Shown: one piece after another, positions 1,790-59,489 of the stretch
Layout of the letters: the number at the start of each line of letters is the position of its first letter
Numbering within the stretch: position 1 is the first letter of the stretch
The notes under the pieces: generated by a model
Told to the model about the DNA's origin: nothing
Databases searched by the model: none
Seen by the model: only the letters and a program-made list of their open reading frames with translations
Translations under genes and position numbers: made by a program
Origin: Nigrospora sphaerica
Lineage: Eukaryota; Ascomycota; Sordariomycetes; Amphisphaeriales; Apiosporaceae
Length of the DNA: 64,000 nt
Reading direction: 5' to 3'
NCBI GenBank assembly: GCA_018287875.1
Contig: JAGVVL010000017.1
Span: forward strand, 2,666,001 to 2,730,000

Positions 1790-3537
1790 TTAGGCCCTCT
1801 TCGACGCTTTCACCACGATGCCACTCAGGTGGGGAAACCAAGCTCCTTGCACCCTCCATTCCTTGTGTGGGTTTACCATCTCGATATCGAACTGCGTCAC
1901 CAGCGTCGCCACGAGTTTGTGAAGCTGTATCAGCGCCAAGTTCTCGCCGATACACCTGCGAGGGCCGCCTCCAAACACGAAGTCTGCAGCGTTCATGGCA
2001 GACAACCGCTCCTGGTACCGTTGGAGATCCTCCTCCGGGCCCTGCAGCCACCGTTCTGGGCGGAACTTGTCCGCGTCCGGCCCAAAAACAGAGTCGCGGG
2101 CCATGATGTATGGGTTAACGCCGAGCGTGACGCCTTTCGGCACGAAGCCTCCGCTGGGAAGCGTGAAGCCCCCAGCGGGCACGTCGCGCTCGAGCGGCAT
2201 CGAGACGCCGGGGAGAATGCGCAGCGTCTCGCGGACGACAGCGTCCAGGTACGGCGAAGCGCGGGCCTGTTGATAGGAAATGGGTTGGCCCGGGGGGTGG
2301 GCGCCCGTGGCCCTGTCCAACTCGGAGCGGAGGCGCGTCCAGATGGCTCGGTCCCTTAGGATATGATACATGGCGGAGCAGAGGGCGCTGGTGGTGGAGT
2401 CGGCCCCCGCCAAGAACAGGCTCATGATCCAGCTGACGACAGTCTCGTCGGCCGTGCCAGGGACCGCGGCCTTGGTCTCGAGGAACTTGTCCAGCAGATC
2501 GGGCTGGCCGGGGTCGTGAAAAGACACGTCGCTTCGCGCCAAGCGTTCCTGGAAGCGACGGATGCTGCATTCCAGGACGGTAGTGAGACCGGGAACCTGG
2601 ATATAGGGGATGCGGAAAACGTAATGCCCAAGCCAGGGGAGCATGCCGGCGCTGACGAAGGTTCGGATGAGCAAATATGCGCGGCCCAGCGTGCCGTCGA
2701 AATCGCAGCCCTTGTCCATGTAGCCCAGGGTCTTGCTGAACGCCACGGCTCCTACGGCGTCCCAGGAATCTATGCACGGCGTCATCAGTTCCATTCCACC
2801 CATGGCGTGGGGACGGGGGTCGGGCCAGGACTTACAGTACCCCAGCCAATCGCTTAAATCGAACGACTGTGCCGTTCCAGCAAACCGGTTCCCGAGATGA
2901 AAACATAGGCTATTTATAACGGCATCGAGGTGAGGCTCCATGGCCAAGATATTCGACGTCGTGTAATGCCTCGCGATCGGCTTCTTGATCGCCGCATGCT
3001 GGTTGGGGTCTCTCTCGCTGAAGAGGTGGTGGATCACACGAGTTCCGTCTTTGGCGGCAGCGATTTCGTAGAAGACACTCTAATGGACAAGTCGGTCAGG
3101 GAGGGTTCGTCGGTAGTAACAGAGGCTCTAACCTTTCTCCATTGCCCCCGGTCTTGGTTGAAAATAACCTTGAGCGCGTCGACGTCGGCCACATCCAGGA
3201 CGTCGGGCCCGACGCAAACTACGGGGCCGTATCTCTTGTGTAGTTCCAGGCATTTTTGGGGGTATTGGTCTCGAACTACATGGTAAAAGCGCCATAGATT
3301 CGTCCACTCTGTGGGTGTTTGGTCAGCGACGCAACGGAGCCAGGCTTGCCACAAGGAGAGAATGGACAAAACTCAACTTGCTAGCCAAGGGCCGGGATAA
3401 GAACGGAGGGGTGAAGATAGATAGCACCACACGGTCCAAGTACAGAGTGTCAAGAGAAAGAGTGCCGTATAGGAAGGGACGAGGGGTAGGCCAGGGGCCG
3501 GGACCAGCGTGGCATCTTCCAGAGTGAAATTGGACAT
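1790..3537 (-). CDS. Cytochrome P450 monooxygenase, four exons
   Basis: Model: complement(join(1790..2769,2836..3079,3133..3308,3378..3537)), 519 residues. Membrane-anchored haem-thiolate monooxygenase of unknown substrate; resemblance is to fungal pisatin-demethylase/benzoate-hydroxylase-like P450s. Exon 1 starts at the ATG at 3537 and gives a hydrophobic anchor (ALFLLTLCTWTVW) followed by the proline-rich hinge SPLRSYPGPWLA; later in-frame starts would lose this. Introns are 69, 53 and 66 bp, all GT-AG. Splicing gives the expected joins RGQWRK/SVFYEIAAAKDGTR and DWLGY/YSWDAVG. Seen downstream: the I-helix AGADSTTS, the ExxR motif ETLR, FRPERW, and the haem loop FVFGGGPRRCIGE with Cys about residue 466. 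It is convergent with the phosphoglycerate dehydrogenase gene. An 11-bp inverted repeat lies about 250 bp upstream. Substrate cannot be inferred. Confidence 0.92.
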
Positions 3538-53406: not shown

Positions 53407-55678
53407 TGTGTTTGTGCTGCCGTTGCGGGCCGCGTTAAGGGTCGTGCATGTGTGGTGGCTACTAGTACGGGCATGAGGGAAGGGAGCGACGATGAAGGCA
53501 TGCAGGCACGGGGGAGCAGATGTGCGGGATGGAGCATGTTTACAAAGGAAAGCCGGCTTCGCGAGTCACCCGGTAAGGCTCGCGCCGTCGCCTTCTATTG
53601 TCCTGCAAAGCCCCGCCATGATACGGGCCCCTGTGTAGGGCGACGGTCTTTTTCGTTCAACCAGGCCCCCCCCTTCCCCTTCCCCCATCGGTTTCTTGCC
53701 TGTCCAATGCCAAAGCGCGAGAGGGCTGAACCACTAACCATTGCGGCTGATGGCGGGCTCTCTTCCCTAACTGGCCTAGATGGACTAGGTACAGGATCGG
53801 TGCACACCCGAAAAGCTGGGCCCGCGCATCGGACAGAGGCCGCGCCCGGCAGCGGGTTCCAGGGCATCCGTATCGCCATGTGGGATACGGAGCATCGGGT
53901 GGCTCCGGGTCCAGCGTCGTCTGCGAAAGTACCTTGGTGTTGGTGGTGGGCTACGCATTGCGGCCGAGTGGTTTGATGTCGCAGATTGCAGATCACCTTT
54001 CGGGTTCTTCCCCCTGCCCGAGTTGCGTCGGATCTCAAAAGGCCGGCCGCGGCACCATGGGATGACGGGCAGAAACAGAGTTTTCCGGACCATCAGCCTG
54101 GCGTCCGGGAGGCTAGAACGCCCTTGGCAACCAGCGCCCTGAGGCGGAAATGGGTCGACCCGGGCTTCCATGCCTTTTGTTCCCACGGACGGCCGGGGAC
54201 GATGGGACGGACGACGACTGGGGAAGGCCCAACCAACATCAAGGCCGAGGTGTCACAGCAACCCGGTAACGTCAACTTTGGCGAACCAAGATCGGGCGGC
54301 TGATAGGTCACAAAACCTCTCCGCCGGGCGACGACGGATGGGCCTGCTGTCACGGCAGTCAAACTGCCAGACTCGGCCGGGGGGAGAGGGAGGGGCGCGC
54401 CGCGGCCGACGATCTGCCCAATTGCCCAACTCCCCCCTTGTCCAGGTACATTTCAACCCCGCAACTCTCAGACCCCCCTGCCAAGCCCGCCTGCAATGTC
54501 CACGCTTGTCCCCGCCCCGACAGCCCACAACGACCGGAACGCTGCTGAGCAAAGGGTCGCCCGGGCGGGGGAAGGGAGACCCAAGCGGCCCCAGCTGGAG
54601 GGCCCGCCTTGGATTTTTCCCTACCGGAAATCGAGCTAAATGAAACGCGCCGCACCACGCTCGTCCAAGCGTCACGCGTGGCTTTGCGCCCAACCCGAGG
54701 TACATCAGAACCCTATTAATTAACCGAAGCTACAGTACCTCCTCGCCAGCCTCGCACGAGTCATGGCCCGCATATCCAGCATCCCGGGACCTGCTTTGTC
54801 CTCCTTCCGACGGGCACGTTGCTGGGGATCCAGGTCGGTCCAGACCGCCACCGCCCGTCTTTGCGGCTACTACCTCCTCCCCTCTCGCGTCCTTCATTGG
54901 GCCTCTCCCTCTCGTCCTCGTATCATGTAGAACCGTTCCATACTGCCTCATCGTACGGAAATACGTGATGGAGCAGAACATGACGGCGGAATAGTCGCAG
55001 TGTTGCCCGCTCCCCAGGTAAGCAGGTGCCCAACAGATAGCATGCCTCCTCCGCCGCGGGTATACTTAATCCGACAGTCTACGCCGGCTTGACTCACAGA
55101 GCATGACATTTCTTACCATGGGTCTCAAAGTGGACGTTACAGGTATAAAGATTTGTAAAATGAAGGCTAATCGATACCAGAAGCCGGAGAGATGGCATAG
55201 TAGACACCATCGAGCTGTGACACCACCCCATTTGCCCTTGCCCTCAGACCGGAGAACATGGTTGCTAAGAGGTCGTACGCCTTGAAGTCCTGTTTGCTTC
55301 CCTTTCTTTGCTGGCGCTCCTTTCTCGGCATATTCTACCCGCTCATGGTTGGATTGCTCCTGATGCTAGTAGGTATGCCTCGCTTTTGGCTCCTTCCTCA
55401 ATAGTTGAAGGCCCCAGGAGCTGCTTCCCATTTCAACCGACACAGGAAGGCAATGGGGAGGCAAGTGCGTACCTGCCCGTGTCCAATATCTATTGTATCA
55501 GCGTGGTAATTCCGTTTCTTACTCATGGATCCTACTCGCCATCGCGAGGTCTGTTAACTGTCGTTCGTCACTCCTTCACCTACATGCCATCGGAGGTGAT
55601 CGATCAAGGTAGGAACCGCCCCGGATCCGTGGAAAGACCAACCCCTCGTCGTCGGTACGGTCCAAAGGCACGTCCTTC
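53407..55678. other. Intergenic upstream of PTH11-like gene and HFM1
   Basis: 2.27 kb between the divergent starts. It has many short frames but nothing domain-like. The last 370 bp run open in one frame into the HFM1 start in a shifted register and are not part of it; a further 5' HFM1 exon cannot be excluded. Confidence 0.5.
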
Positions 55679-58600
55679 ATGGATGACCTGGATGATTTCG
55701 ACCGCCGGCTCCTCGGCATGCCGCTGGCGGGCCAAATGCCTCGACCGAGGCCGGCACGCGTTGTTGGCGATGCCAGTCGTCACTTCAGGCCCTTCGTTCC
55801 ACCACCCCCTCCTATGACGTCTTCAAGCCCCCGGAGCTCTCCTTCGGTGCTGGGATCCAGTCCTTCGAATAGATACGCCATCGACGGGGATCAACCCACA
55901 GTCTCTTCCCCTCGTCTCCCAATCCCAAGAAAGGCCGTCCAAGCGGCGCTGCAGCCCGCACCGCCCACCGTCCAAGGCATCCAGCTTATCGACCCACGAC
56001 AGGCTCTCCCGGACAGGTGCCGCGCCGTTTTCCCCTATGAGCTTTTCAATGCTGTCCAGTCCAAGTGCTTCCATCTTGCATACGGCAACGACAACTTGGT
56101 GGTGTCAGCTCCCACCGGAAGCGGAAAGACGGTCATCTTGGAGATGGCTATCTGCAAGCTGATCACAACCCCAGGAGGTGAGAATTTCAAGATCGTCTAC
56201 CAGGCACCCACCAAGGCGCTGTGTTCGGAACGTGCAAGAGACTGGCAGAAAAAGCTCAGCCACATGAATCTCAATTGCGTAGAGCTCACTGGCGATACGT
56301 CCCAGACGGAAATGAAACGCGTGGGCAATGCATCAATTATTGTAACCACTCCCGAGAAGTGGGATTCCGTCACCAGAAAGTGGGCGGACCATCGAAAACT
56401 TCTCAGCGTAGTTCGCCTCGTGCTCATTGACGAGGTCCACATGTTGCACGACGTTCGAGGCGCGACACTCGAAGCCGTGGTCTCGCGCATGAAGACGAGC
56501 GGCGCCAATGTTCGCTTTGTTGCACTCAGCGCCACAATTCCCAACGTGAAGGATATCGCAACATGGCTGGGTCTCAATCACACGAACCAACAAGATCCCG
56601 CCCATTACGAACGCTTTGGAGAGGAAATGCGACCGGTGAAGCTGAAGAAATACGTGTACGGGTATGACAGCCCGGGCAACGACTTCATCTTTGAGAAATC
56701 CTTGGACGGCAAACTCAACATGCTCCTCGCCAAGCATTCGGAAAGAAAGCCCATCATGGTCTTTTGCTTTACGAGAAAGTCCTGTGAGAACACTGCGCGG
56801 AAGCTGGCCGAGTGGTGGACTACATGCAAACCTGCTGAGAAGGCGTGGCCAGCACCGACACAGCGCGTACCAGTCATCAATCAAGATCTTTCCGAGATTG
56901 TCCGCTACGGTGTAGCGTTTCACCATGGTGGCCTCGACTTTCAGGATCGAACTTCTGTTGAACGGAACTACCTGGGTGGAGAACTCCATGTCATCTGCTG
57001 CACGTCGACTCTCGCCGTTGGTGTGAATCTCCCCTGCCATACCGTTGTTCTGAAGGGCACGTCCTGCTATTCTGATGACGGGCTCCAGGAAGCATCAGAT
57101 CTAGATGTCATGCAAATGCTTGGGCGAGCAGGACGCCCGCAGTTCGACCAGACGGCCACCGCCATCATCATGACGAAGCGCGACCATGTCACGAGGTACC
57201 AGAAGATGATTTCTGGAGAGGAGACCATCGAGAGCAACTTACATCGGAAGCTTGTTGAGCACCTCAACTCCGAGATTGGCTTGGGTACGATCCAAACACT
57301 GGCCACTGCACAGGCGTGGATTGCGGGCACATTCTTGAATGTCCGAATGAGACAGGCGCCCGAGTACTACGTCGCTCAGAGTGGCGAAGCAAGTGCCAGC
57401 CCTGATGAAAGCATACAGCAGTGGTGCGCGAGAGACATTAAGCTCCTTCAAGAACATGGACTTATAACCGACGATAGCAAGTTCAAGTGCACAGAGTACG
57501 GGATCGCCATGTCAAAATACATGGTACAATTCGACACGATGAAGATACTGTTGGAGATAGAACGAGCTCCCTCGGTGGGAGAGCTGGTAAGTTACCGCGG
57601 ACCCAAAAGTCGGCGAGTAGGCTGACAGCGTCGAGTTGAGCGAGCTGTCCAAAGCAGCTGAAATCCGTGACATACGCTTCAGTGCGGCTGAAAAGGGCCT
57701 TTTCCGCACTCTCAACAAATTCGTACTTTTCCCCATACGAGGAAATCTGAACGAGACGTGGCAAAATGTTTCAATTTGTGTGCAAATTCATCTGGGGGCT
57801 CTCGAGTGGCCGAACGAGAATGACATGGGAAGCCTGAGAAAGAAAGTGGCACAACAGAAAGGGTTGATATTCGATCGCATGAATCGCCTTCTCCGCTGTT
57901 TTATCGACTGCAGAATCTTCGACCGTGATGCTGTTGGCGTTCGGAATGGACTCGAGCTCGCCCGAAGCATTGCCGCTGGTTTCTAGGAGGACCAGCCTTC
58001 TCAGCTCCAACAAGTACTAAACGTCGGCCCGGTCGCGGCTCGGAAACTCGCTTCCTACAATATCACCAGCGTCTTGCAGCTTGCAGATACGGAATTCCAA
58101 GACATTGAGCGCATGCTAAGTCGGAACCCACCTTATGGAAAGAAGCTCCTCGAACAACTCGAGGGCTTTCCTCGCTTGACCATCGCAGCCACCATTCTGA
58201 CGGCCCAAACGGCAGCCAAAAACGCCGACCGTAACATGGCGGTCACTTTGAAGGTTCACCTTGGCTACACCAACTCCAAAGGCGTGCCCTGTTGGCGGTC
58301 AACGATCCCGGCGGTTACATTCATGGCAGAGACAAGCGATGGGCGTCTTTGTCATTTTTGGCGAAGCAGCATCAAGAATGCCCACGGAATCGACATCAAG
58401 TTTCGCGTACCACTAAGCAGGGCCGAAGGTCTTGTGAAATGCTTCTTCAGCTGCGAGGATATTGTGGGAACCCAAGTTGTAGCTACATGCCGCACTCCAC
58501 CCTCTCGAGAAGCTGCGGATACGACGGAGAAGTCGAGAACTCATCCCAAGGAGCAGGTGTCGTTGACAGCGACAATTCCCCACCAAAGGGGAACGAGGAT

Positions 58601-59489
58601 TACGGATGATCCCATCTTCGACGATCTGGACGACGAAGACATGCTAGGTGCACTCAGCACACACGAGCCCCCAAACGAGGCAGCGACCGACGAGTACCCA
58701 GACATCATGGAAATATTGAACGCGCCGTCCCTTGAACCGGTCCAAATGGAGAACGGGCGATGGCTATGCAACCACACCTGCCGCGGCGGGGGCCTTACCA
58801 AGGGCGGTAAGCCGTGTAGTCACAAATGCTGCCACGAGGGTCTGGAGAAGCCGCGACCGCCCCCCTCAAAAAAGGAGAAGGACAAGGGGAAGAAGGCGGA
58901 TAAAAACGAGGGCGCTAAAGGGCCCAGTAAAGAGGATAAGAAAGAGACCAAACGAAAGCACACCGATGACAAGAACGAGGGAGAGGGAGAGGGATCTTGG
59001 CGCGCCGCCAAGAAACAGCGACATCCCCAGAGCCTTGACGGGGGCATTGATGACCTCGACTTGATTGATCTTTCAATCTTGACAGATGATAACAGGCCAG
59101 AGGCGAGTCAGAACCAGCATCAGAGTCGGACTCAGCCTCGAGTGCTCAAGTCGTCCCTTGACCCCAGCTACTTTGAGCTCGACGAAGACGTTGCTTCATT
59201 TGAGGAGAGCCCCACCCGGGTCAATGAAGCTCCCATGGAGCCTGAAGAGGCCCCCCTCGCGATCGAAGGCAAAAAGGAAGGCGGGAATCGGGTTTGGAGT
59301 CAAGTGGTTGAAGAGAGCGGAAACTGGCCACCGCTGCTGGGACCGGACCCTTTCGCAGTGGCTATGGACGTGCGAAGGGGCCCGTCCCCTCCCCAAGAAA
59401 TCCCGGCTTGGCTGGCTGAGATGGGAGGGGAAATGTTCGATCTGGTTCACGGTGTTGTCGAAATGGAGGAGGATGGCTACAGGCCTTGA
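55679..59489 (+). CDS. hfm1: HFM1/MER3 meiotic DNA helicase with one in-frame UAG at codon 753
   Basis: Model: join(55679..57586,57636..59489), 1254 codons. Ski2/Brr2-type superfamily-2 helicase needed for crossover formation in meiosis. Seen: Walker A APTGSGKT, motif II DEVH, SATIPN, the HHGGLD segment, motif VI QMLGRAGRPQFD, a winged-helix region, a Sec63 domain (from about residue 640), then an acidic/Lys-rich tail with a zinc-knuckle-like NHTCRGGGLTKGGKPCSHKC. A 49-bp intron joins VGEL to LSELSKAAEIRDIRF; its acceptor is the GAG at 57633-57635. The frame is open except for TAG at 57984-57986, between ARSIAAGF and EDQPSQLQQVLNVG, where homologues are expected to have Trp in WED. Unspliced translation ends at 752 residues, losing most of Sec63 and all the tail. 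Downstream codons remain intact. Either the stop is edited (see findings), or it is a nonsense allele or an error. The start at 55679 is likely but not certain. Confidence 0.9.
57975..57996 (+). promoter_or_regulatory. Hairpin presenting the HFM1 UAG in its loop
   Basis: GCTGGT (57975-57980) pairs perfectly with ACCAGC (57991-57996). The 10-base loop TTCTAGGAGG contains the in-frame UAG, with the A at 57985. Two inner U-G pairs (57981/57990, 57982/57989) could shorten the loop to CUAGGA. The stem is GC-rich. This is the kind of local structure reported to be favoured for fungal A-to-I mRNA editing. The pairing is directly visible; the function is inference. Confidence 0.55.

Follow-up and report, generated by a model that had tools for sequence, protein, structure and literature searches.

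In Fusarium graminearum, UAG-to-UGG editing of the kind seen in PUK1 is known from 69 further genes, in stretches that had been misannotated as introns (PMC4817773). Of these, 54 are perithecium-specific or upregulated in perithecia, and the orthologues of AMA1 and SPO22 are included (PMC4817773). A review counts another 70 premature-stop-correction (PSC) genes besides PUK1 (PMC11156358). The editing sites of F. graminearum show preferences for C or U at -2, U at -1, A or G at +1, G at +2, and A or G at +3 and +4; all six preferred bases are found at 3,512 sites (8.7%) (PMC9600606). Editing is reported to require Tad2, Tad3, and the DUF726 protein Ame1 (PMC11087585). The MV500-501 residues of Ame1, described as essential in F. 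graminearum, arose from KN in Sordariomycetes, and its nucleophile Ser is described as dispensable for editing in F. graminearum (PMC11087585). Individual editing sites are little conserved in the comparison of Sordaria with Fusarium and Pyronema given in PMC5381528. PMC12754623 and PMC5381528 describe a debate over the neutral or adaptive nature of restorative stop editing in fungi.

We analysed a window of 64,000 nucleotides, that is, the whole stretch of Nigrospora sphaerica DNA presented above. It holds an HFM1/MER3 gene at 55679-59489 on the forward strand, with one 49-bp intron. The best matches of this gene are annotated MER3/HFM1, and the protein has a Ski2-like helicase core, a winged helix, and a Sec63 domain. 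The features of the gene are:

55679..57586, + strand: exon 1, 636 codons from MDDLDDFD; DEAD, Helicase_C, winged helix
57587..57635, + strand: predicted intron of 49 bp; GTAAGT donor, CTGAC branch site, GAG acceptor (57634-57635)
57636..57983, + strand: portion of exon 2 that precedes the TAG, 116 codons; includes the first part of Sec63
57975..57996, + strand: RNA hairpin; stem 57975-57982 with 57989-57996, loop 57983-57988 (CUAGGA)
57984..57986, + strand: in-frame TAG at a Trp codon; A at 57985 is the proposed edited base
57987..59489, + strand: post-stop part, 500 codons and the terminal TGA 59487-59489; rest of the Sec63 domain

Pfam identified DEAD (2e-34), Helicase_C, and SNRNP200_wHTH on 55613-57586 of the window. 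The start codon, ATG 55679, was placed by similarity to the relative P0121, and an upstream first exon is possible. Removal of the predicted intron joins GEL to LSEL in frame, in agreement with the homologues. Use of a closer CAG, only 3 nt past the branch A, would disrupt the reading frame, so that the next usable AG is needed; the predicted intron is thus a small example of distance-dependent acceptor choice. The part of exon 2 before the stop matches Sec63 profile positions 38-139 on its own with 24.8 bits (cut-off 25), and the whole stretch scores 39.8 bits, above the cut-off. Pfam on the post-stop piece alone scored zero families; by eye, one can make out a region like a helix-hairpin-helix, a cluster of Cys and His residues, and a conserved tail at the C-terminus. 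The counterpart protein of the closest relative, which has the Trp, covers Sec63 positions 35-245 and aligns to the post-stop part over its full length. A Sec63 family search of the whole genome gave six matches, of which the MER3 locus has one internal TAG and the other five are stop-free. In a kinase family search of the genome (138 matches), a stop within a match can be an intron read through, and such stops are therefore no measure of a genome-wide TAG excess.

The TAG is in frame with 752 codons upstream and 500 downstream, and is the sole internal stop once the intron is removed. Relatives were searched with a query carrying X at the stop. Among the best 120 of 6536 relatives, 119 have Trp at this position; the remaining one, P0094 from Xylariaceae sp. 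FL0594, has no residues for ten positions there. We fetched 286 proteins, and Trp is present in all 202 that have a residue at the TAG column. The 84 proteins with no residue in this column include P0094, P0173, P0198, P0213, and P0231; the others of the 84, as far as listed, are ORFs ending near the upstream intron. The preliminary description had claimed that the TAG is the only stop in about 1250 codons, that Trp is expected in its place, and that the 500 codons after it are intact, and had proposed an alignment of HFM1 orthologues at this codon. The open codons on both sides, the reading frame continuing to TGA 59487-59489, and the Trp in 202 of 202 relatives bear these claims out.

The strand folds as GCUGGUUU-CUAGGA-GGACCAGC, with 8 bp, a 6-nt loop, an energy of -10.8 kcal/mol, and the A third in the loop. 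The probability that A57985 is unpaired is 0.93-0.99 in folds of ±20 to ±100 nt. A 6-bp GCTGGT/ACCAGC stem around the UAG, noted in the preliminary description, is present and, with two U·G pairs added, folds as 8 bp. For comparison, TAG was written at other codons, and a hairpin was called strong if the A lay in its loop, the stem had at least 6 bp, and the ±20-nt fold was at -10.8 or below. Strong hairpins of this kind were found at 0/18 Trp codons and 2/200 codons one step from TAG in MER3, and at 2/79 Trp codons and 117/4382 codons in nine other ORFs of the window. With TAG written in, any hairpin loop holds the A at 11/18 MER3 Trp codons, 103/200 one-step codons, 33/79 Trp codons of the other ORFs, and 2115/4382 of their codons. 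Position in a loop is thus itself common (about half of the codons), and only the strength of the hairpin is rare. The neighbouring bases, C U [A] G G A G, agree with six of the six published Fusarium preferences, including the U at -1 that had been pointed out before; all six are found at 0/18 MER3 Trp codons. When the codon of a Trp that precedes Glu or Asp turns into TAG, the bases at +2 and +3 are G A, and this Trp would therefore be pre-suited to editing. The Trp-Glu/Asp context of the protein may partly account for the editing-suited bases.

The closest relative, referred to here as relative A, is represented by P0121 and P0230, which are probably one gene because both come from a 5732-base contig. 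Exon 1 of the window is identical to it at 571/635 residues. In a tree of the helicase part (45 chosen sequences out of 287 aligned), the window and relative A group together (support 1.0) and adjoin Apiospora (0.745), inside a clade (0.997) that holds Pestalotiopsis, Seiridium, and others. Apiospora belongs to the Amphisphaeriales, Xylariomycetidae. The branch of the window (0.045) is no longer than that of relative A (0.057). At the site itself, P0230 has Trp, and the stop of the window may therefore be young. A second relative, B, is P0231 on an 8860-base contig, whose ORF begins at the first Met past the site. P0231 is the only one of the 57 C-part proteins (P0230-P0286) to start after the Trp; the other 56 extend across it. 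This ORF start suggests a stop in relative B as well, and may equally be the choice of the gene caller.

The three-way comparison covered 450 aligned residues common to the window and relatives A and B, beginning 43 codons past the site. Over these residues, unique changes number 34 in the window, 46 in relative A with its Trp, and 51 in relative B. Differences from the outgroup consensus over 309 columns are also alike (window 164, relative A 162, relative B 165). By both counts, the tail of the window is as constrained as that of the Trp-bearing relative. No signs of a pseudogene were found after the stop, either as further lesions or as faster change than in relatives A and B. Identity between the window and relative A is 104/114 just before the site, 156/190 just after it, and 105/159 at the end. 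Relatives A and B differ from each other at least as much (314/450 identical), and the fall in identity past the site therefore looks like the nature of the region itself.

The same codon is affected in the gene models of distant fungi. The 661-residue model of Naviculisporaceae sp. PSN 640 (P0173) ends with the residue that directly precedes the Trp column. Nine sequences longer than 600 residues have their last aligned column at query positions 600-950, and P0173 is the sole named NCBI record among them that ends before 877; P0219 ends at 877, P0229 at 881, and six of the nine are metagenome or assembly ORFs. In Rhypophila sp. PSN 637 (P0213), the model jumps from ARL to EGRPNQ, whose Glu is the residue after the Trp. 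The residue following ARL in its sister is Val (GTN), and the called intron is therefore in phase 0 by the GT-AG rule. With an acceptor in phase 0, the codon at the Trp position must be NAG; TAG would be its natural reading, with Trp ancestral. The R. decipiens model (P0198) skips the Trp codon, probably by a gap running from GT (Val) to CAG (Gln). A break at or around the Trp codon is thus present in 3/3 of the Naviculisporaceae (Sordariales) models fetched. In the tree, these three group as a single clade (support 1.0) within the Sordariales, far from the window. Since lineages with Trp lie between them and the window, it is simplest to take the two stops as independent gains. On the evidence of protein models and not of DNA, this Trp codon seems to have turned into a stop separately in Naviculisporaceae.

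The two Rhypophila proteins agree at 588/620 residues before the site and at 358/402 after it, and have their last ten residues in common. After the site, R. decipiens matches Neurospora at 85/178 residues, much as Apiosordaria, with Trp, matches Neurospora at 92/187. The Naviculisporaceae stop, if real, would be old and its post-stop part kept. The model of P0094 lacks ten residues exactly over the Trp, which is short for a usual intron. This gap is possibly a third independent stop, and is suggestive only. An argument from an excess of gaps at the site was tried and rejected. Among rows flanked on both sides, gapped models (from one to four) occur at 70/307 conserved columns, and the site has two (P0094 and P0198). 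Because such gap counts are ordinary, the case for recurrence is built on where P0173 ends and where the splice edge of P0213 lies, both exact to the residue.

Genes resembling Tad2, Tad3, and Ame1 are predicted in the genome, and the Ame1-like one carries MV at the contact with Tad3, on which mRNA editing depends. The Tad2-like gene (L017) has HAE and PCVMC motifs and the Tad3-like gene (L021) has lost the Glu; both were assigned by eye. DUF726 is represented by four genes, of which the fourth was matched as two pieces. One of them, the Ame1-like L025 (G000:C12:3644047-3645096), has MV, and the other three have KS, RN, or MD. The MV of L025 is one residue nearer to the Ser position than in the F. 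graminearum numbering. Its Asp and His spacings of 58 and 98 equal the F. graminearum values, as do those of L024, which is without MV. In L025, Gly replaces the catalytic nucleophile Ser (GYGLG), consistent with an editing cofactor without hydrolase activity.

Part of a SPO11-family gene is present in the genome, as are six MutS-type matches on contigs that do not look bacterial. ZIP4 and MER3 are members of the ZMM group, and the matched part of ZIP4 in this genome is without a stop. A MATalpha family search of the genome gave no hits, and neither did its control. None of nine HMG matches is clearly MAT1-2-1 by eye. Hop1 was not recognised, the two HORMA hits resembling Mad2 and Rev7 by eye. 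Such mating-type and Hop1 searches are weak for short genes split by introns. As these genes were not recognised, the lineage may be asexual.

A separate observation concerns the assembly, which contains an apparent bacterial genome (G000 contigs C19 with 836366 bases, C20, and C21; loci L007-L010 and L015). MutS matches of equal score lie at C19:50643, C19:817400, C20:50939, and C21:42308, together with a bacterial-looking TadA. The repeated matches point to a circular chromosome of about 767 kb whose assembly ran on beyond its starting point. The bacterial MutS piece has at most 48% identity among the 80 prokaryote loci listed, from which near records are possibly left out. In L007:1-2067, MutS is divided between two ORFs (2-673 and 718-2067), and is either a broken gene or an assembly slip. 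These contigs may represent a new reduced endohyphal lineage, or a contaminant.

We consider it quite probable that the UAG is a PSC editing site, changed from UAG to UGG in fruiting bodies. In vegetative cells, the MER3 mRNA would give at most 752 residues, comprising the helicase core and a Sec63 domain cut in half. Within fruiting bodies, Ame1 would direct the tRNA deaminase Tad2-Tad3 to this mRNA, and A57985 in the hairpin loop would be deaminated. Ribosomes would then read UGG (Trp) in place of UAG and produce full-length MER3 for meiotic crossover formation. The editing, its timing, and the loss of function of the short form are inferred here from the DNA. Stop correction was also the reading of the preliminary description. 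It is partly supported, and agrees with the conserved Trp, the constrained open tail, the hairpin and its neighbouring bases, the lack of a consensus intron, the editing machinery, and the apparent stop in a distant clade. Neutral or contrary to it are the Trp of relative A, the unrecognised mating-type and Hop1 genes, the stop-free ZIP4, and the ordinary gap counts.

A recent null allele, in which one TGG-to-TAG mutation broke the gene of a strain or lineage that has lost sex, is a fairly unlikely explanation. A single point mutation would be enough for it, and G-to-A at TpG can also be produced by RIP. It would accord with the Trp of the closest relative and with the failure to recognise mating-type and Hop1 genes, and a young null allele would likewise leave the post-stop part intact. 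However, a random one-step TAG would hit this codon with a chance of about 1/201 at equal rates, or 1/19 if only Trp codons mutate, and a strong hairpin with a six-of-six context is unexpected by chance. The breaks at the same codon in a distant clade, the ORF of relative B starting past this codon, and the presence of a SPO11-family piece and MutS-family genes also argue against a null allele. It is highly improbable that the true genome has TGG and the TAG is an assembly or sequencing error. Only one base is involved, but the error would have to be a single substitution in a gene that is otherwise clean, on a contig of 3.6 Mb, and at a codon apparently missing in other lineages too.

The constrained post-stop part would be explained equally well if the long form arose by translational readthrough of the UAG and not by RNA editing. 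Readthrough needs neither preferred editing bases nor a loop position, and UAG editing is established in the class Sordariomycetes (PMC11156358); we give readthrough very little weight. FgBUD14 is reported to undergo PSC editing and, in addition, alternative splicing of the intron in which the site lies (PMC11156358). An unrecognised alternative intron could remove the codon here as well, a case that the preliminary description had allowed for. The sequence TTTCTAG is acceptor-like, and an acceptor of this kind is apparently used in the model of Rhypophila sp. PSN 637. Against this, 23 in-frame GT..AG candidates of 40-200 nt span the TAG codon, and 0/23 have a GTRNGY donor or a properly spaced branch site; the neighbouring predicted intron 57587-57635 has both a consensus donor and a branch site. 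An alternative intron would also remove part of the conserved stretch just before the Trp, and its probability appears close to nil.

Beyond editing at this one locus, it is possible, though we would put it a little short of probable, that the Sec63 Trp codon of MER3 is a recurrent editing lock. An Amphisphaeriales lineage and Naviculisporaceae would have acquired the UAG there separately, with relative B and Xylariaceae sp. FL0594 as further possible cases, since the conserved Trp-Glu/Asp pair already offers the deaminase an ideal context (UAG-GA). If such a lock is kept by selection, the full crossover helicase would be limited to fruiting bodies through RNA editing. A stop that seemingly recurs at one codon in two subclasses offers a clean test between neutral and adaptive views, because one can follow its gain, loss, and upkeep through species with and without sex. 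A further caution is that meiotic gene models in Sordariomycetes can conceal such stops as early ends or false introns.

Among the papers listed by searches of the literature on editing with MER3, HFM1, or ZMM, there was no report of fungal MER3 editing, in line with the preliminary remark that none was known for this gene; an entry in a supplementary table is possible. The nearest described cases are the F. graminearum PSC genes (PUK1, AMD1, FgAMA1, FgRID, FgBUD14, and the SPO22 orthologue). Like MER3, they have an in-frame UAG at a sense position with U at -1, a preference for hairpin loops, and sexual-stage functions, and annotation pipelines give them false introns (PMC4817773; PMC11156358). 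Here, in contrast, the gene is HFM1/MER3, the host is near Apiospora (Amphisphaeriales), and the editing is predicted from sequence. FGRRES_01563, the SPO22/ZIP4 orthologue of F. graminearum, is likewise a meiotic synapsis gene with PUK1-like editing (PMC4817773). It is a different protein, and the part of ZIP4 matched in this genome is stop-free. The OLD-ZAO editing of premature stops in Neurospora involves the same hairpin loop, U at -1, and PSC correction (PMC12754623). The genes treated in that account are antiviral gene pairs edited by OLD deaminases, and not meiosis genes (PMC12754623). PSC editing genes as such are already known; the new part is the apparent recurrence at one codon.
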